Below, one piece after another: positions 1,679 through 11,479 of a DNA stretch of 64,000 nt. Origin of the DNA: Methylosinus sp. Sm6 (GTDB lineage: Bacteria; Pseudomonadota; Alphaproteobacteria; Rhizobiales; Beijerinckiaceae); contig NZ_JAINDZ010000006.1 in NCBI RefSeq assembly GCF_019802345.1, positions 1-64,000 of the forward strand, read 5' to 3'. Below the pieces are notes generated by a model. The model was not told the origin of the DNA. It worked only from the letters and a program-made list of their open reading frames with translations, and searched no databases. Within the stretch, counting starts at the first letter, position 1; every line of letters starts with the position of its first letter. The translations under genes and the position numbers were made by a program.

Positions 1679-4099
1679 ATGCGGCTGTTCGCCCGGTTTC
1701 TCGGATTCCTCTTCGCGACCGGCGCCATCGTCTTCCTGATCGGCGTGACGGCGGCTGCGGGCATAGTCTACATCTTCTCCAAGGACCTGCCGGACACGGC
1801 GCAATTGCGCAATTACGAGCCGCCGGTGACGACCCGCGTCCACGCCAATGACGGGTCGATCCTCGCCGAATATTCGCACGAGCGCCGCCTGTTCCTGCCG
1901 AGCGCCTCGATTCCGCCGCTGGTCAAGCAGGCCTTCATCTCGGCCGAGGACAAGAATTTCTACACGCATAATGGCGTCGACTTCGAGGGCATCGCCCGCG
2001 CCGTGTCGATCCTCGCCCAGGGCGGACGCCATATGCAGGGCGCCTCGACCATCACCCAGCAGGTGGCCAAGAACTTCCTCGTCGGCAATGAGCGCTCGAT
2101 GGAGCGCAAGATCCGCGAGGCGCTGATCTCCTTCCGCATCGAGGCGGCCTATTCCAAGGACCGCATCCTCGAGCTCTATCTCAACGAGATCTATCTCGGC
2201 CTCGGCAATTACGGGGTCGCGGCGGCGGCGCTCAACTATTTCAACAAGTCGGTCTATGAGCTGACCGTCGCCGAGGCGGCCTATCTCGCCGCGCTCCCCA
2301 AGGCGCCGAACAACTATCACCCCTTCCTGCATCGCGAGCGGGCGATCGAGCGGCGCAACTATGTCATCGACCGCATGGTCGCCGACGGCGTCATCGCGCA
2401 GGCGGACGGCGACAAGGCGAAGACCGAGCCGCTCGGCGTCAATCCGCGCGTCACGTCGCCCAACACTTATGTCGCCGGATTTTTCGCCGAGGAAGTGCGC
2501 CGCGAGCTCTTGGAAAAATACGGGGACAAGAAGCTCTATGAGGGCGGGCTGTCGGTGCGCTCGACGCTCGACCCGAAGATGCAGGCGATCACCCGCAAGG
2601 CGCTCGCGGACGGCCTCGTTCGCTTCGACGAGGCGCATGGCTTCCGCGGGCCGATGCGCCATATCGACATCTCCTATGATTGGGGGCTGCCGCTCGCCGA
2701 GATTCCCGCGCTCGGCGATGTGAAGCCGTGGCGTCTCGCCGTGGTGCTCGAAACCTATGACGCCTATGCGCGCGTCGGCCTGCAGCCGGGACGCGAGAAG
2801 TCCGGCGAGGTGGCGCGCGAGCGCGAGACCGGCCAGCTGACGCAGGAAGGCATGCGCTGGGCCGGCCGCAGCGTCCGCGCGGCGCTCACGCCGGGCGATG
2901 TGGTCTATGTCGAGCCGCTGGCCGGCAAGCCGGGGCAGTTCCGCCTGCGGCAGATTCCGGAAATCTCCGGCGCCATGGTGGCGATGGACCCCTATACGGG
3001 CCGCGTCTTCTCCATGGTCGGCGGCTTCTCCTACGACCAGTCGGAGTTCAATCGCGCGACGCAGGCGCTGCGCCAGCCGGGCTCCTCGTTCAAGCCCTTC
3101 GTCTACGCCACGGCGCTCGACAATGGCTACACGCCGTCGTCGTCGATCCTCGACGAGCCGATCACCATCGTTCAGGCCAATGGCGAGAGCTGGACGCCGG
3201 AGAATTTCGAGGGCGGCCACGGCACGGGCGCGCACCCGCTGCGCTATGGCGTCGAGCATTCGAAGAACATGATGACGGTGCGCCTCGCCAAGGACGTCGG
3301 CATGCCGCTCATCGCCGAATACGCGAAGCGCTTCGGCATCTATGACGACATGCCGCTCTATCTGCCGATGGCGCTCGGCGCCGGCGAGACCACGGTGTTG
3401 CGCATGGTCACCGCCTATTCGATGCTGTGCAACGGCGGCAAGCGCATCAAGGCGACGCTGATCGACCGCATTCAGGACCGCTGGGGCCACACGCTCTACA
3501 AGCACGACGAGCGCCAGTGCCTCGGCTGCGACGCGCCCAAATGGGAAAACCAGAACGAGCCGAAGCTGATCGACAAGCGCGAGCAGGTGCTCGATCCGCT
3601 CACCGCTTATCAGATCACCTCGATCATGGAGGGGGTGATCGAGCGCGGCACCGGCCAGTCGATCAAGGCGGTCGGCAAGCATCTCGCCGGCAAGACCGGC
3701 ACCACCAACGACGCCAAGGACCTGTGGTTCGTGGGCTTCTCGCCCGATCTCGCGGTCGGCGTCTATATCGGCTACGACCGGCCGCGTCCGGTCGGCGAGG
3801 GCAAGAGCGCGCAGGCGGCGACCTATGCGGCGCCGATCTTCCGCGACTTCATGACGGTGGCGCTGAAGGACAAGCCCGACGTGCCGTTCCGCGTGCCCCC
3901 GGGCATCAAGCTGATCTCGGTCGATGCGCATTCGGGCCTGCGCAGCAAGGGCCAGGGCTCGATCCTGGAGGCGTTCAAGCCGGGAACGGCCCCGCCCGAT
4001 TCCTATTCGGCGGCCGGCTCCGACGGCGGGCTGCGCTCCGGCGGCGCGCAGGATGTCGACACGCAGCTCGGCGGCAGCGGGACCGGCGGACTGTATTGA
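1679..4099 (+). CDS. mrcA: Penicillin-binding protein 1A (bifunctional class A PBP)
   Basis: Inner-membrane enzyme that polymerises lipid II into glycan strands and cross-links the peptides. The 806 residues begin with a short cytoplasmic tail and one membrane anchor (about 5-33). A GT51 glycosyltransferase domain follows, with catalytic Glu90 in SAEDKNFYTHNG and the GASTITQQVAKN motif (121-132). The transpeptidase domain has its SxxK nucleophile at Ser469-Lys472 (SSFK), an SKN motif, and KTGTT at 672-676. The insert between the two domains is typical of alphaproteobacterial PBP1A. It lies 152 bases after amiC. prfB, often the next gene in this class, is absent; a palindromic repeat pair and convergent ccmB follow. 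Confidence 0.96.
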   Translation: MRLFARFLGFLFATGAIVFLIGVTAAAGIVYIFSKDLPDTAQLRNYEPPVTTRVHANDGSILAEYSHERRLFLPSASIPPLVKQAFISAEDKNFYTHNGVDFEGIARAVSILAQGGRHMQGASTITQQVAKNFLVGNERSMERKIREALISFRIEAAYSKDRILELYLNEIYLGLGNYGVAAAALNYFNKSVYELTVAEAAYLAALPKAPNNYHPFLHRERAIERRNYVIDRMVADGVIAQADGDKAKTEPLGVNPRVTSPNTYVAGFFAEEVRRELLEKYGDKKLYEGGLSVRSTLDPKMQAITRKALADGLVRFDEAHGFRGPMRHIDISYDWGLPLAEIPALGDVKPWRLAVVLETYDAYARVGLQPGREKSGEVARERETGQLTQEGMRWAGRSVRAALTPGDVVYVEPLAGKPGQFRLRQIPEISGAMVAMDPYTGRVFSMVGGFSYDQSEFNRATQALRQPGSSFKPFVYATALDNGYTPSSSILDEPITIVQANGESWTPENFEGGHGTGAHPLRYGVEHSKNMMTVRLAKDVGMPLIAEYAKRFGIYDDMPLYLPMALGAGETTVLRMVTAYSMLCNGGKRIKATLIDRIQDRWGHTLYKHDERQCLGCDAPKWENQNEPKLIDKREQVLDPLTAYQITSIMEGVIERGTGQSIKAVGKHLAGKTGTTNDAKDLWFVGFSPDLAVGVYIGYDRPRPVGEGKSAQAATYAAPIFRDFMTVALKDKPDVPFRVPPGIKLISVDAHSGLRSKGQGSILEAFKPGTAPPDSYSAAGSDGGLRSGGAQDVDTQLGGSGTGGLY

Positions 4100-4364: not shown

Positions 4365-5036
4365 CTACTCCCCCAAATGCCGCAAGGCCGCCGCCGCGGC
4401 GAAGGGGCAGAGGGCGAGCGACGCCAGGGTGATCGCGCAGAGAATGGCGAAGGGCGCGGCGAAGGGCACGGTTCCGCCGGAGGCCGCTCCGGCCGCAGAC
4501 ACGCCGAAAATCAGCACCGGGATCATCAAGGGCAGCGCCAGCAGCGCCATCAGCAGGCCGCCGCGCCGCAGCGTCACCGTCGCCGCCGCGCCGATCGCGC
4601 CGATCAGCGTCAGCGCCGGCGTGCCGGCGAGCAGCGTCGCCGTCACCGCGGCCAGCGCCGTCTCGTCCTGCTGCAGCATCAGGCCGAGCGCCGGCGCGGC
4701 CAGCGTCAGCGGCAGTCCGGTCGTCACCCAATGAGCCGCGCATTTGACCAGAACCACCAGCTCGAGCGGCGTCGCCGCGAGCGGGAAGAGGTCGAGCGAC
4801 CCATCCTCCATATCGGCCTGGAACAGACGGTCGAGGCAGAGCAGGCTGGCGAGCAGAGCGGCGATCCACAGAATCGCCGGGCCGATGCGCGCCAGCAGAT
4901 TGGGGTCCGGGCCGATGGCGAAAGGGACGATGGTCACCATCACCAGGAAGAACACGACCCCCATGGTCGTAGAGCCGCCGATGCGACGGGCGACGGCGAG
5001 ATCGCGCAGGAACAGCGCCGGCAGAGGAGAATTCAC
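4365..5036 (-). CDS. ccmB: Heme exporter/ABC permease CcmB
   Basis: Membrane subunit of the CcmAB(C) ABC complex used in system I cytochrome c maturation, which releases heme-loaded CcmE. The 223 residues form about six hydrophobic segments. The family signature near residues 60-85 is visible (LDRLFQADMEDGSLDLF), as are the Pro/Leu-rich LPLMIPVLIFG segment and the amphipathic ends. Its start overlaps the ccmA stop by four bases (ATGA), indicating translational coupling. No ccmC, ccmD or ccmG follows; the operon ends at a palindromic repeat and the end of mrcA. Confidence 0.93.
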   Translation of the reverse strand: MNSPLPALFLRDLAVARRIGGSTTMGVVFFLVMVTIVPFAIGPDPNLLARIGPAILWIAALLASLLCLDRLFQADMEDGSLDLFPLAATPLELVVLVKCAAHWVTTGLPLTLAAPALGLMLQQDETALAAVTATLLAGTPALTLIGAIGAAATVTLRRGGLLMALLALPLMIPVLIFGVSAAGAASGGTVPFAAPFAILCAITLASLALCPFAAAAALRHLGE

Positions 5037-5686
5037 GGCTTGCCTCCCAGCGCCAGCTCGTTCGCCCCGGCAAGGCCGAGCGGCTCATGGGTGGCGGCGA
5101 CGATCATTCCGCCCTCGGCGAGATGCGCGCGCATCGCCTCGGCGAGCCGCTCGCGGGAGGCGCGATCGAGCGCGCTGGTCGGCTCGTCGAGCAGCCACAG
5201 CGGGCGGAAGGCGACGAGCAGGCGCGCGAGCGCGATGCGTCGCTTCTGGCCCGCCGACAGAATGGCGACGGGCGCGGCGCCGAGATGGGCGAGCCCGACC
5301 CGTTCCAGCGCCTGCGCCGGCGCGAGGCCGCGGCGGCCGTCGCCGCCGCCGAGAAAGCGCCCCCAGAACGCGAGATTTTCCAGCGCGGTAAGCGGCGCTT
5401 TCAGGCCGTCGGCATGGGCCAGGTAGTGAAGATGGGCGGCCGGCTCGTCCTCGCGCGTCCCGACGACCTCGATGCGCCCGCGGCGTATCGGCAGCAAGCC
5501 GGCGATGGCGCGCAAAAGCGTCGATTTGCCGGCGCCGTTGCGCCCGGTGACGACGAGCGCCTCGCCGCTCGTGAGCGAGAAGCCGAGGCCGTCGATGACC
5601 GGCCGGCCGCCGCGCTCGACGCAGAGATCCGTGACCCGCAAGCGCAGCGGCTGTGAATCGGGGGACGGGTCGGCGCTCATGGGCAA
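5033..5686 (-). CDS. ccmA: Heme exporter ATP-binding protein CcmA
   Basis: ATPase of the Ccm ABC complex; ATP hydrolysis drives release of holo-CcmE during cytochrome c maturation. The 217 residues carry Walker A GRNGAGKST (48-56), the ABC signature LSAGQ (143-147), Walker B LLDEPTSALD (165-174) and the switch histidine H200. The signature reads LSAGQKRR, as is usual for CcmA. An in-frame start two codons later (MSADPS) is also possible. It is the first gene of a two-gene ccmA-ccmB unit. The 91 bases between it and the upstream SpeE-like gene on the same strand show no clear promoter. Confidence 0.94.
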   Translation of the reverse strand: MPMSADPSPDSQPLRLRVTDLCVERGGRPVIDGLGFSLTSGEALVVTGRNGAGKSTLLRAIAGLLPIRRGRIEVVGTREDEPAAHLHYLAHADGLKAPLTALENLAFWGRFLGGGDGRRGLAPAQALERVGLAHLGAAPVAILSAGQKRRIALARLLVAFRPLWLLDEPTSALDRASRERLAEAMRAHLAEGGMIVAATHEPLGLAGANELALGGKP

Positions 5687-7281: not shown

Positions 7282-8523
7282 GTGGCGAAGCACAACAGCC
7301 TTTCGGATTACGCATCGAGACGATTTCGGTTCGCCGGCAATGCGCTCCTGCAATTCCACGATCCCTTCTTCGCCGAGATCGATCGGATGAGGAGCGAGTT
7401 CGAGGCGAGGGGAACGCATTTCGTCAGCTTCGCCAATTATGATTATCTCGGCCTCGCCAATCATCCCAAGATCGTCGAGGAGGCCGATCGCGAGCTGCAT
7501 CGGCTCGGCGTCGGCGCGCTCGCGTCGCGCCTCGTCGGCGGCGAGCGCTCGACGCACAAGCCGTTCGAGGCCGAGATCGCCGAGTTTCTGGGCATGGAGA
7601 GCGCGCTGACGCTGGTCTCCGGCTATCTCGCCAATGTCACCACCATCTCCTGGCTGCTCGGCAAGCGCGACGCGCTGTTCATCGACGAGCTCGCCCATAA
7701 CAGCATCGTCGCCGGCTGCGAGGGCTCGCCGGCCGAGACGATCAAGTTCCGCCACAACGACTTCGATCATTTGGAGCAGCTGCTGCGCGAGCGGCGCGAG
7801 GAGTTCCGCCATGCGCTGATCGTCGTCGAGGGCATCTACAGCATGGACGGCGACACCGCCGACCTGCCGCGGCTCGTCGAGATCAAGGAGAGGCATGACG
7901 CCTGGCTGATGGTCGACGAGGCGCATTCGCTCGGCGTGCTGGGCGAGACCGGGCGCGGCCTCGCCGAATTGCAGGGCGTCGATCCCAATCGATTGGATCT
8001 CGTCGTCGGCACCATGTCGAAGACGCTCGCCTCCTGCGGCGGCTTCGTCTGCGCGAAGAAGCCGGTCATCGACTGGTTCCGCTACACGCTGCCTGGCTTC
8101 GTCTACTCCGTCGGCCTCTCGCCGGTGATCCTCGCCTCGGCGCGCACGGCGCTGCGGCTGATGCAGGAGGAGAATTGGCGCGTCGGCAAGCTCGCGCGCA
8201 ACGCCGAATTCTTCCGCGATCACGCGCACGCCAATGGGCTGAGCACCGGCCCCGCGATCGGGCGCGGCGTGGTGCCGATCCTGTTCCAGGACAGCGTCGA
8301 GACCATGTGGGCCTCGCAGCATCTTTTGGAGAAGGGATTCTACGTGCCGCCGATCGTGCAGATCGGCGTGCCCAAGGACCAGCCGCGGCTGCGCTTCTTC
8401 CTTTCCGCCAGTCATTCGGAGGAGGAGATTCGCGGCGTCGTGGAGGCGCTGCGCGATCTGCCGCCGGTCGCCGCGGAAGCGCATGAATTGGTGAGAAAGG
8501 CGATGGCGGGGGCCGCAGGGTGA
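7282..8523 (+). CDS. Serine palmitoyltransferase-like alpha-oxoamine synthase
   Basis: PLP enzyme of the family that condenses an amino acid with an acyl thioester (SPT, KBL, ALAS, BioF). Counting from the GTG at 7282 (413 residues), PLP-site features are His139 (AHNSIVAG, ring stacking), Asp212 and His215 (VDEAHSLG), and Schiff-base Lys247 (GTMSKTLASCGG). The core resembles bacterial serine palmitoyltransferase (NYDYLGL, VEGIYSMDGD, FRHND). An upstream GTG at 7186 would add 32 low-complexity residues. With the ceramide-synthase-like, desaturase and hydroxylase genes downstream, the likely reaction is serine + acyl-CoA or acyl-ACP to 3-ketosphinganine. Another oxoamine synthase activity cannot be excluded from sequence alone. 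Confidence 0.82.
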   Translation: MAKHNSLSDYASRRFRFAGNALLQFHDPFFAEIDRMRSEFEARGTHFVSFANYDYLGLANHPKIVEEADRELHRLGVGALASRLVGGERSTHKPFEAEIAEFLGMESALTLVSGYLANVTTISWLLGKRDALFIDELAHNSIVAGCEGSPAETIKFRHNDFDHLEQLLRERREEFRHALIVVEGIYSMDGDTADLPRLVEIKERHDAWLMVDEAHSLGVLGETGRGLAELQGVDPNRLDLVVGTMSKTLASCGGFVCAKKPVIDWFRYTLPGFVYSVGLSPVILASARTALRLMQEENWRVGKLARNAEFFRDHAHANGLSTGPAIGRGVVPILFQDSVETMWASQHLLEKGFYVPPIVQIGVPKDQPRLRFFLSASHSEEEIRGVVEALRDLPPVAAEAHELVRKAMAGAAG

Positions 8524-8525
8524 AA

Positions 8526-8587
8526 GCGAATAGAGAGTAGCGAATAGCGAATAGCCCCTACTCGCTATTCGCTATTTCGCTACTCGC
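8526..8587. repeat. Palindromic cluster of GCGAATA-type heptamers
   Basis: The left arm carries GAGTAGCGAATAGCGAATAG (8535-8554) and the right arm its near-exact inverse, CTATTCGCTATTTCGCTACTC (about 8564-8584). RNA across it would form a stem of about 20 bp with one bulge. It lies directly after the SPT-like stop codon and before the next gene of the operon. A second, larger copy of the same repeat lies between secA and pfp near 35.4 kb. Confidence 0.85.
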
Positions 8588-8646
8588 CTTTCTCCGCGTC
8601 GTTTTGCCCGCTTTCGCCCGCCTCACAGGCTCGATAGGTGTTTCAC

Positions 8647-9834
8647 ATGGCCGGCATCGAGATTCTTCCCGTCGATAGCCTCTCGAGGTTTCTGACCTTC
8701 TGCAAGCTGCCGCGCCTTCTCTACAAGGGCGAGAAGGGTTTCGCGCCTCCGCTCGACGCCGAGCGCTGGACGGTCTACGGCCATAAGCTCAATCCGCATT
8801 TCAAGCTGGTCGAGGCGCAGGAGTTTCTGGCGCGGCGCAACGGACAATGGGTCGGCCGCATCGCGGCACAGATCTACAAGCCGCCGATAGAGCCGGTCGG
8901 CGCCTCGCGCGCGCAATGGGGCACGCTCGACGCGATCGACGATCTCGAGGTGGTGCGCGCGCTGACCGAGGCGGCGGAAGCCTGGCTCGGCGCGCGCGGG
9001 GCCGAGCGGATCAACGGCCCCTTCTCGCCGTCGATCAATGCGGAACTGGGCATGCTGGTCGAGGGGTTCGACGCGACGCCCATGATCTTGATGCCCTGGC
9101 ATCCCCGCTATCTCTCGCGCCACGTCGAGGCGCTCGGCTATACGAAGGCGCGCGATCTCATCTCTTATCGCTACATCACGGCGGAGCAGGATTTCCGCGA
9201 TAATCTGCGCATCGCCGAGCGGCGCGAGTGGCGCAACCGGCTGAAGATCCGTCAGCTCGATCTCGAACGGCTGAAGAAGGGCGAGACGGCGTTGATGGCG
9301 GAGCTGTTCAACGACGGCTGGCGCGACAATTGGGGTTTCGTCCCCTTCCTCAAGGAAGAGTTCGACGCCTCGGCCGATGTGCTGAAATATATCATGCCGC
9401 CGGAGTTCGGCATCGTCGTCGAGCTCGACGGCGTTCCGCAATCCTTCGCCGTCACCCTTCCCAATCTGCACGAGATCACCGCCGATTTCGACGGCCGGCT
9501 GCTGCCGTTCAACCTGCCGCGGCTGATCTCGCGTTTCCGCAAGCACAAGTTCCGCACCGCGCGCCTCGCTCTGCTCGGCACGCGCAAGACGCTGCAGAAC
9601 AGCGCCACCGGCGGCGCCATTCTCCTCGCGATGATCGAGGAGATGCGCCAGCGCGGACGCAATGCGCAGATCGTCCAATTCGAGGCCGGCTGGGTGCTCG
9701 AGGACAATATGGGCATGCGCAAGCCGATCGAGATGTTCGGCGGCCAGATCGACAAGATTCACCGCATCTATGAGAAGCATTTGCCGGGCGGCGCGGGAGC
9801 GCCCGCGCCGGTCACGCAAGAGGCGACGCCATGA
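8647..9834 (+). CDS. GNAT-fold N-acyltransferase, bacterial ceramide synthase-like
   Basis: A 395-residue protein of the family often mislabelled dATP pyrophosphohydrolase, which includes bacterial ceramide synthase (bCerS) of Caulobacter. Family hallmarks are an N-terminal LPRLLYKGEKGFAPPL segment, NPHFKLVEAQEFLARRNGQ followed by VGRIAAQI, and in the C-terminal half FNLPRLI and ARLALLGTRK, then an amphipathic helix and GWVLEDNMGM. The expected reaction is acylation of the amine of a sphingoid base. The ATG at 8647 is preferred over the GTG at 8638 because AGG at 8636-8638 is well spaced. Its stop overlaps the desaturase start (ATGA at 9831), so the two are co-translated. Function rests on family and context. 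Confidence 0.78.
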   Translation: MAGIEILPVDSLSRFLTFCKLPRLLYKGEKGFAPPLDAERWTVYGHKLNPHFKLVEAQEFLARRNGQWVGRIAAQIYKPPIEPVGASRAQWGTLDAIDDLEVVRALTEAAEAWLGARGAERINGPFSPSINAELGMLVEGFDATPMILMPWHPRYLSRHVEALGYTKARDLISYRYITAEQDFRDNLRIAERREWRNRLKIRQLDLERLKKGETALMAELFNDGWRDNWGFVPFLKEEFDASADVLKYIMPPEFGIVVELDGVPQSFAVTLPNLHEITADFDGRLLPFNLPRLISRFRKHKFRTARLALLGTRKTLQNSATGGAILLAMIEEMRQRGRNAQIVQFEAGWVLEDNMGMRKPIEMFGGQIDKIHRIYEKHLPGGAGAPAPVTQEATP

Positions 9835-10826
9835 ATGTCATCTCTATTTCCGCGACATCCTCGGCCGACCGCTCGCATGTGGAGCGGCGGCGGCTCATCC
9901 TCGAGGCGCATCCCGAAGTGAAAAGCCTCTTCGGCAAGGACGACGTCACCTTCAAGATCACCGCGGCGATTTTCGCCGGGCAATTGCTGATCGCCGCCAT
10001 TCTCGGATGGCTCGGCCTCGCCTATTGGCCGCTCGCCCTGCTGCTGGCGATCTCTATCGGGGCCTTCGCCAATCACGCCAATTTCGTCGTCATTCACGAC
10101 GCGATTCATAATTGCGTGTTCGAGAGCACCTTCGCCAACAAGCTTACGGCGCTGCTCGCCGATCTCCCCAACGCCTTTCCGACGGCGATGGGGTTTCGCT
10201 GCTATCACATCAAGCATCATTCGCATCTCTCGGCCTATGATTACGACGCCGATATTCCGAGCCGCTGGGAGGCGGATTGGGTCGGAAGCAGCACATGGCG
10301 CAAGGCGGCGTGGCTGTTCTTCTTCCCGGCCGTGCAGCTCGCGCGCCTGTCGCGGCTCAAGGGCACGGTGCCGATCATGGGCCTCTGGACCTATGTGAAC
10401 ATCGCCGTCATCGCCGCCTTCGACGTCTTCGTGCTGTGGGCTTTCGGCCCCAATGCGCTGCTCTATTTGTTCCTGTCCTTCTGGTTCTCGGTCGGCGGGC
10501 TGCATCCGTTGAGCGCGCGCTGGGTGCAGGAGCATTTCGCCTTCGGCCCGAACCAGGGCACGTTCGACTATTACGGCCCGCTCAACACGCTCGCGCTCAA
10601 CATCGGCTATCACAACGAGCATCATGATTTTCACGAGATCCCGTGGCGGCGCCTGCCCGAGCTCACCAAAATGGCGCCCGAGTTCTACGAGCCGCTCGCT
10701 TGTCACCGCTCCTGGTTCGCTCTGCTCGTGACTTTCGTGTTCGATCCGCGCTACTCGCTGCGGACGCGCTCGGCCAATGTGGAGCTCGCCAGCGCCTCTC
10801 AGGCGATTCCCGTCCCCGCAGAATAG
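9831..10826 (+). CDS. DES-type sphingolipid (dihydroceramide) desaturase homologue
   Basis: A 331-residue membrane di-iron desaturase. Histidine boxes are HDAIH (89-93), HIKHH (126-130) and HNEHH (261-265), the last within GYHNEHHDF. Unlike ordinary acyl desaturases it begins with a segment (about 14-35: HVERRRLILEAHPEVKSL) matching the N-terminal Lipid_DES region of eukaryotic dihydroceramide desaturases. It also shares GLHPLS, EHFAF and YYGPLN with them. I recognise the similarity to animal DEGS1 by eye across nearly the whole length. Two to four hydrophobic segments lie between the boxes. The predicted role is introduction of a 4,5 double bond or hydroxyl into a ceramide-like lipid; position and substrate are untested. 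The next gene starts 8 bases later. Confidence 0.85.
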   Translation: MNVISISATSSADRSHVERRRLILEAHPEVKSLFGKDDVTFKITAAIFAGQLLIAAILGWLGLAYWPLALLLAISIGAFANHANFVVIHDAIHNCVFESTFANKLTALLADLPNAFPTAMGFRCYHIKHHSHLSAYDYDADIPSRWEADWVGSSTWRKAAWLFFFPAVQLARLSRLKGTVPIMGLWTYVNIAVIAAFDVFVLWAFGPNALLYLFLSFWFSVGGLHPLSARWVQEHFAFGPNQGTFDYYGPLNTLALNIGYHNEHHDFHEIPWRRLPELTKMAPEFYEPLACHRSWFALLVTFVFDPRYSLRTRSANVELASASQAIPVPAE

Positions 10827-10834
10827 TGGAAACG

Positions 10835-11479
10835 ATGACAGCGACCGAACACGATGCGCTCGCGGCCTCGCCGCGCCTCTTCGAGAGCGATGTTCTCGAC
10901 AAGCTCTCGCGCGTCCACCATCTGACCCCGCCGCTCGTCTACGGCCCGATCATTCTCTGGCTGCTCGCCTACGCCAGCGGCTATGCGGGCGCGGGCGAGA
11001 TCACGCTCGCCTTCGTCGTCGGCTATCTGGCGTGGACGCTCACCGAATATTTCGGCCATCGCTTCCTCTTCCACACCGTGTTCTCGCTGCCCTTCGGGCT
11101 CGGACCGCGCTTCCAATTTCTCATTCACGGCGTGCATCACATCTATCCGAACGATCCGCTGCGGCTGGTCATGCCGCCGCTGCTGTCGGCCCCGATCATG
11201 CTGATCGCGCTGACGCTGATCCGGCTCGTGTTCGGTGGCGCTTTCGCCTGGCCGACGCTCGCCGGCTTCATCGCCGGCTATGTGCTGTACGACTGCGTGC
11301 ACTATTGGACGCATCACGGCCAGCCGAAGTCCGAGCTCGGGCGCCTGGTGCGCCGGCTGCATATGCTGCATCATTTCCGCGATCCGGAGCGCGGCTTCGG
11401 CGTTCACGCCATCTGGTGGGATTATGCCTTCGGCACCGCTTACGAGAAGGGCCAGACGCCGGGAACGCACGCCGTGTGA
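10835..11479 (+). CDS. FA2H/Scs7-type fatty acid hydroxylase (sterol desaturase family)
   Basis: Membrane di-iron hydroxylase of 214 residues. The histidine motifs match the FA2H/Scs7 pattern: HRFLFH (75-80), HGVHH (98-102) followed by YPNDPLRLVMPP, YDCVHYWTHH (152-161), HMLHH (176-180) and a C-terminal WWDYAFGTAY. The cytochrome b5 domain of eukaryotic FA2H is absent, as in bacterial homologues. Four hydrophobic segments are visible. In eukaryotes these enzymes 2-hydroxylate the N-acyl chain of ceramides. Placement eight bases after the DES-like gene supports a sphingolipid role here. The start is the ATG at 10835, after GTGGAAACG. A carotenoid or other lipid hydroxylase remains possible. 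Confidence 0.84.
   Translation: MTATEHDALAASPRLFESDVLDKLSRVHHLTPPLVYGPIILWLLAYASGYAGAGEITLAFVVGYLAWTLTEYFGHRFLFHTVFSLPFGLGPRFQFLIHGVHHIYPNDPLRLVMPPLLSAPIMLIALTLIRLVFGGAFAWPTLAGFIAGYVLYDCVHYWTHHGQPKSELGRLVRRLHMLHHFRDPERGFGVHAIWWDYAFGTAYEKGQTPGTHAV

Follow-up and report, generated by a model that had tools for sequence, protein, structure and literature searches.

Four adjacent genes of Methylosinus sp. Sm6 as the probable core of a variant bacterial sphingolipid pathway

The stretch of DNA analyzed here comprises positions 1 to 64,000 of contig NZ_JAINDZ010000006.1 from Methylosinus sp. Sm6 and is referred to as the window, in full length, throughout; its source genome (G000) spans 5.13 Mb in 162 contigs and is 99.99% complete. 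According to the list of open reading frames (ORFs) of the window, four consecutive + strand ORFs lie within positions 7282 to 11479 (Table 1), and encode an SPT-like alpha-oxoamine synthase (AOS), a bacterial ceramide synthase-like protein (bCerS), a DES-like desaturase, and a fatty acid hydroxylase. A preliminary description of this DNA had reported the four genes at these positions as a single sphingolipid operon, and their placement was borne out. It had also described the last three genes as coupled or 8 bases apart, which agrees with the 4 bases shared by the bCerS-like stop and the DES-like ATG, followed by an 8-base gap before the hydroxylase. The first two genes are separated by 114 to 123 bases, depending on the start chosen for the second, with a near-perfect palindrome inside the gap that belongs to a small AGCGAATAG repeat and is terminator-like on the - strand only. 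Scanning for regulatory sites returned no excess of terminator-like sites (3 versus 3.4 expected from shuffles) and one promoter-like site against 0.8 expected. Given this gap and its palindrome, one transcript spanning all four genes is possible, not established.

Table 1. Coordinates of the four genes and of the intergenic repeat in the window
Feature	Position	Strand	Basis
SPT-like AOS, 413 aa, GTG start, presumed sphingoid-base-forming	7282..8523	+	PF00155; own clade; K247 and H139
Inverted repeat, 17 bp, loop of 3 nt, between genes 1 and 2	8538..8574	.	Sequence scan
bCerS-like N-acyltransferase (predicted), 395 aa from ATG 8647 (alternative GTG 8638)	8647..9834	+	Homologues; predicted tandem GNAT fold
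Sphingolipid Delta4-desaturase (DES)-type membrane enzyme (predicted), 331 aa	9831..10826	+	PF08557 and PF00487; HDAIH, HIKHH, HNEHH
FA2H/Scs7-type fatty acid hydroxylase (predicted), 214 aa	10835..11479	+	PF04116; yeast Scs7 PDB matches

The product of the third gene exceeds the Pfam cut-offs for both PF08557 (Lipid_DES, 32.7 bits versus 23) and PF00487 (FA_desaturase, 83 versus 29.7), in line with the earlier DES-type call and the PF08557 profile check proposed for it. Three histidine boxes are typical of DES enzymes, and the protein carries them as HDAIH, HIKHH, and HNEHH. Its gene is 88 to 90% identical to those of Methylosinus sporium DSM 17706 and Methylosinus sp. Ce-a6, and no sequence relative of the protein was found in the PDB. 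PF08557 is rare, being present in 2 of 385 alphaproteobacterial genomes and in none of 14 controls. This draw of genomes and a second one of 142 were spread evenly over the class and include few methanotrophs. In the draw of 142, "canonical-type" SPT was assigned to the 16 genomes scoring at least 432 bits on the SerpalmtaseAlphaP model; no good relative of the desaturase was found in these 16, of which three gave weak matches (best E value, 1.2e-8 at 28% identity). The DES-type assignment holds at the level of Pfam profiles, which took the place of a comparison with eukaryotic DES sequences, and from it a Delta4 position of the double bond is predicted.

The fourth protein likewise passes its profile (PF04116, FA_hydroxylase; 59.9 bits versus a cut-off of 31), and its only PDB matches up to an E value of 1 are yeast Scs7 structures (4zr1, E value of 1.2e-23; 4zr0, E value of 2.3e-23), so that the FA2H/Scs7-type call and its proposed PF04116 check were upheld. 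Yeast Scs7 and mammalian FA2H carry an N-terminal cytochrome b5 domain; the Pfam search of the Methylosinus protein found PF04116 alone, and no such domain. Its identity as an Scs7-type hydroxylase holds by homology, with 2-hydroxylation of the acyl chain as the predicted activity. Hydroxylase-like genes also occur beside or near bCerS in five other loci (L114, L115, L120, L127, and L192), with weak similarity (E values of 3e-10 to 5e-12) except in L127. Those loci have canonical-type or CFB-like SPT or lie in a DES-bearing genome, which suggests that the hydroxylase-bCerS pairing is general.

For the second protein, neither a Pfam or NCBIfam match nor a PDB sequence relative was found. Homologues are nevertheless present, one per genome, in 15 of the 16 canonical-type SPT genomes, with 34 to 41% identity over most of the length; the sole genome without one, G071, is 82% complete. 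Nine of the 15 matches cross a single stop; for L113, L114, and L121, this stop marks where the gene itself finishes. In L118 and L120, the bCerS-like gene lies behind genes resembling aasR, cerR, and acpR by eye. The predicted structure (pLDDT of 78.7; pTM of 0.79) shows a tandem GNAT fold. Its best structural match is 7q3a (VIA-align Z score of 23.4; root mean square deviation of 3.3 over 302 residues), N-myristoyltransferases scored about 16 to 17, and a Foldseek search was also run. This fold fits a bCerS, which is an N-acyltransferase. The co-occurrence and the model together uphold the bCerS-like call of the preliminary description, and N-acylation of a sphingoid base is the predicted reaction. 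The name follows the usage in PMC11087976 and PMC11324152 and is based here on co-occurrence with canonical-type SPT rather than on comparison with a named Caulobacter sequence. A second homologue with 62% identity lies elsewhere in G000 (C107:90393-91533, locus L090), where the match is split over two frames near the C terminus.

The first protein matches PF00155 (E value of 4.4e-49) and conserves the PLP lysine K247 and the stacking histidine H139, both at the positions previously assigned to them when counted from GTG 7282. Its best NCBIfam score was obtained with the BioF model (354.1 bits, below the cut-off of 426.45), and it also falls under the KBL and ALAS cut-offs. In a quick tree of 62 rows, the window AOS formed one supported clade (SH-aLRT of 98 to 100) with 14 close relatives and the AOS of L164, L165, and L082/L167, and no SPT, KBL, BioF, or ALAS-like row fell inside it. 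Six rows around Escherichia coli Kbl formed a separate supported clade, and the clade of canonical-type alphaproteobacterial SPT included four AOS of Phreatobacter or Phreatobacter-like origin (three titled Phreatobacter). The ALAS-like row neighbored the window clade without support (36.9; quick trees with long branches). L127, the same gene as L110, was left out of both AOS trees, and L081 was also left out of the approximately unbiased (AU) tests described below. By sequence, the first gene encodes a member of a distinct alpha-oxoamine synthase lineage; its SPT activity is predicted from gene context.

Three other full AOS are encoded in G000. Those on contigs C162 and C105 were named by eye, the first lying beside bioA/bioD-like genes and the second being ALAS-like, and the third belongs to a PKS-like cluster on C86. 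Because another AOS adjoins the bioA/bioD-like genes, the window AOS need not be the biotin-pathway BioF of this genome, and that candidate was rejected. The C86 frame (L091) comprises 747 aa, with an ACP-like start (by eye) followed by the AOS domain, and adjoins AMP-ligase-like and 873-aa ketosynthase-like proteins, in what appears to be a separate oxoamine-synthase/PKS-like cluster.

The genome collection yielded 577 DES matches, and conservation was explored in the best 80. The SPT-bCerS-DES order is collinear in 53 of these 80 loci, which exceeds a chance arrangement, and the hydroxylase comes next in 35 of those. The three genes have a divergent order in L052 and are scattered in L081 (Spartobacteria); the other 25 loci lack at least one of the trio in the stretch covered, including L042, L061 (with bCerS present), and L064, which end with their contigs. 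In L082, the AOS adjoins DES, and in the Phreatobacter and Bacteroidota loci, DES stands alone. Of the 27 loci that lack the collinear set, all but L042, L052, L061, and L064 were followed up by searching their DES-bearing genomes, 23 in number. A bCerS homologue was present in 20 of these 23 (21 of 24 with G368), a raw count with no contrast set of SPT-less genomes, and 12 of the 23 carry a CFB-type SPT above 485 bits, which in two genomes also passes the cut-off. These counts indicate that DES accompanies sphingolipid genes in several lineages. In L192 of G368, an alphaproteobacterium, ACP-like, KAS, GT2, hydroxylase, and bCerS genes lie near DES, and the same genome has a second DES at L191.

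A second cluster on contig C44 of G000 (L179), which the preliminary description did not cover, encodes an acyl carrier protein (ACP), a ketosynthase (KAS), two MaoC-like proteins, a short-chain dehydrogenase/reductase (SDR), and GT21 and GT2 glycosyltransferases. Only one of the MaoC-like proteins reaches Pfam. The ketosynthase has the ACS, HGT, and GHAL patterns, which we take to be catalytic; the E. coli FabF control matched HGT only. The GT21 protein scores 147.3 bits on PF13506 and matches a solved ceramide glucosyltransferase (26qs/26qf; E value of 8.5e-29, 104 bits). Near DES in relatives, homologues of GT2, KAS, and GT21 were found in 17, 12, and 4 of the 80 loci, respectively, and L035 contains all eleven genes within about 10.6 kb, so the cluster seems to belong to the same system. 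In G035 (L127), the gene for an SDR 49% identical to that of C44 runs up to base 3264, the position at which the ATG of bCerS starts; two GT21 genes lie upstream, and a hydroxylase and an SPT-like gene are on the opposite strand. On this arrangement, the SDR is the leading candidate for reduction of the 3-keto group. A second ketosynthase of G000 (C100:24504-25700, L180) is 71% identical to the C44 one, and no other cluster gene was matched in the 19 kb around it.

Also absent from the preliminary description were searches for the canonical enzymes CerR and AasR. With one query each, no CerR of canonical similarity was found in five of five methanotroph genomes, where the best scores were 65 to 82 bits, compared with 180 to 256 bits in three of three positive controls. 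Similarly, no AasR of canonical similarity was found, with two methanotroph genomes scoring 54 and 65 bits and the other three 270 to 299 bits, versus 558 to 617 bits in the controls; the matches of 270 to 299 bits lie in frames of 632 to 1068 aa.

Family-level gene identity, conservation, linkage in relatives, and the lack of close CerR and AasR relatives were all computed directly. On this basis, we regard the four genes as the probable core of a variant route to bacterial sphingolipids that is conserved among type II methanotrophs and related Beijerinckiaceae, with a rough probability of 0.7. In the proposed scheme, the dedicated ACP, the ketosynthase, and the MaoC-like proteins would build an acyl-ACP chain, which the AOS would condense with an amino acid, most likely serine, to give a 3-keto base. 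The SDR may reduce the 3-keto group before or after N-acylation of the base by the tandem-GNAT bCerS. The DES enzyme would then add a 4,5 double bond or a C4 hydroxyl to the base, the Scs7-like enzyme would 2-hydroxylate the N-acyl chain, and the GT21 and GT2 enzymes may attach sugars. In this way, the second cluster could supply the roles that AcpR, AasR, and CerR fill in the canonical pathway. The ceramide-type lipid foreseen in the preliminary description is thus supported by gene context, and the best reading of the product, from sequence, is an unsaturated or C4-hydroxylated, N-acyl-hydroxylated, and perhaps glycosylated ceramide. For a more specific version, we place the odds somewhat below even: type II methanotrophs and relatives would make a complete glucosylceramide-like lipid, with a Delta4-unsaturated base, a 2-hydroxy N-acyl chain, and a sugar head, through an eleven-gene pathway with an ACP/KAS/MaoC-derived chain and a KDSR-like SDR in place of CerR.

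Several observations weigh against the variant-pathway interpretation. In the draw of 385 genomes, PF08557 was missing from three genomes of the window's own family, and only 1 of the 19 loci titled Beijerinckiaceae has the hydroxylase within the stretch covered. In G000, the second cluster sits on another contig, and linkage was seen in relatives only. Its ACP is no closer to AcpR (24.6 and 22.7 bits) than to E. coli AcpP (28.9 bits), with scores of 117 and 116 bits against the ACPs of its own cluster and 24.6 bits against the L192 ACP, and its GT21 scores higher on the hopanoid HpnI model (166.3 bits, cut-off of 310) than against the ceramide enzyme. The AOS falls below the cut-offs of all three matched NCBIfam SPT models (219.8/670, 313.1/500, and 282.8/640 bits), of which SerpalmtaseAlphaP is strict, being passed by only 1 of the 16 canonical-type SPT genomes. 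It is also without the PATP-like loop of the aligned SPT rows (near residues 357 to 366) and has H-N-S (N140) like the ALAS-like row, where SPT rows have H-A-S or H-A-C. Furthermore, AU tests joining its clade with SPT, KBL, or BioF gave p-AU values of 0.589, 0.592, and 0.659, and none was rejected. The SPT call therefore stands for the AOS family and its two conserved residues and falls short on the profile cut-offs, and the tree test suggested earlier, a grouping with KBL or BioF, speaks neither for nor against it. An identity as KBL was rejected since the E. coli Kbl rows form their own clade, even though the joint clade was not rejected.

A related possibility, compatible with the preferred pathway, is that the DES-like protein is a hydroxylase acting on C4 of the base or on the N-acyl chain, leading to a saturated hydroxylated ceramide. 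Precedents exist in the bifunctional DEGS2 (PMC10140171) and in the Caulobacter DesA-family protein CC_0202, reported to hydroxylate the sphingolipid N-acyl chain (PMC11324152). We regard this as rather unlikely in view of the PF08557 match and the three histidine boxes; moreover, Caulobacter vibrioides is among the controls without PF08557, so gene 3 is not simply CC_0202. More improbable is a lipid of the same class with another base, in which the AOS would use alanine, glycine, or another amino acid to form 1-deoxy or other bases that then pass to bCerS and the desaturase or hydroxylase. The low SPT scores and the deviations at the loop and at N140 speak for it, whereas bCerS, DES, Scs7-like, and GT21 genes in one linked set are known from serine-derived sphingolipids.

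A product outside the sphingolipids, such as another N-acylated amino lipid linked to hopanoids, lipid A, or capsule and made by re-used families, would agree with the HpnI-leaning GT21 and with the unrejected deep joins of the AOS. Its chances appear slim, given that bCerS accompanies SPT in 15 of 16 genomes and that most of the 23 DES-bearing genomes also carry an SPT-type AOS and bCerS. The ordinary rhodobacterial ceramide pathway (AasR, CerR, AcpR, SPT, and bCerS) with two extra genes shares bCerS with the locus and was rejected as very improbable on the CerR and AasR searches of five methanotroph genomes, the AOS also lying outside the canonical SPT clade. The variant sphingolipid pathway remains our preferred interpretation. 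Preceding the four genes, two - strand genes (window positions 4365 to 5686), which we take to resemble CcmB and CcmA, have homologues in 23 and 26 other loci fetched, respectively.

The pathway predicts a membrane lipid class for much-studied methane oxidizers. If true, bacteria would perform eukaryote-like ceramide tailoring, with enzymes known chiefly in animals, plants, and fungi, although both the first enzyme and the origin of the chain would differ. It also bears on the order of ketone reduction and N-acylation in bacteria because the predicted SDR takes the place expected for the periplasmic CerR. In addition, DES-like genes in Alphaproteobacteria, Bacteroidota, and one Spartobacteria genome raise the question of the direction of gene movement between bacteria and eukaryotes.

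The eukaryotic glucosylceramide pathway consists of SPT, KDSR, CerS, DES1, FA2H/Scs7, and a GT21 glucosyltransferase. The system proposed here has the same family set of DES, Scs7-like, GT21, and SDR-type reductase; it differs in N-acylation by a tandem-GNAT bCerS, a one-gene AOS, and an ACP-linked module. With the Caulobacter-type pathway (aasR, cerR, acpR, spt, and cerS), it has in common a bCerS homologue, an AOS, probably a dedicated ACP, and an alphaproteobacterial host, but here the searches returned neither a CerR nor an AasR of canonical similarity, the AOS belongs to another clade, and DES is present. PMC11324152 states that cerS never shares an operon with the de novo genes, spt among them, whereas spt-like and cerS-like genes are adjacent here and in the 53 collinear loci. 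This adjacency alone is not unique, since it also occurs in two Bacteroidota metagenome-assembled genomes (G145 and G162). In Rhodobacteria, SPT has been described as co-occurring with ACP and acyl-CoA synthetase genes in PMC9386255, whose main text contains no words starting with Methylo, Beijerinck, or desaturase.

As to novelty, which the preliminary description had claimed for both eukaryote-type tailoring genes next to SPT and bCerS, no description of a DES gene next to SPT/bCerS in a bacterium, nor of methanotroph sphingolipids, was found among the literature matches listed. The claim is narrower for the hydroxylation step, for which CC_0202 and FA2H-like 2-hydroxylases tied to sphingolipids in myxobacteria (Ring 2009, as told in PMC10002949) are known; the portion of PMC10002949 at hand mentions no DES/bCerS operon for the latter. 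An SDR-type bacterial 3-ketosphinganine reductase has a precedent in BT_0972 (PMC9278070). The nearest counterpart of a noncanonical AOS with a dedicated chain-building system is PfSgaAB(C) of Pseudomonas fluorescens MYb115, as presented in PMC12134224, where an iterative type I PKS makes sphinganines and a ketone-reductase homologue is proposed. PfSgaAB is a precedent for a noncanonical AOS that has SPT activity and is supplied by a polyketide synthase. In contrast to that type I PKS, the genes considered here encode discrete ACP/KAS/MaoC-like proteins together with bCerS and, if the eleven-gene pathway is true, would represent a third sphingolipid route in Proteobacteria, besides the canonical and type I PKS routes.

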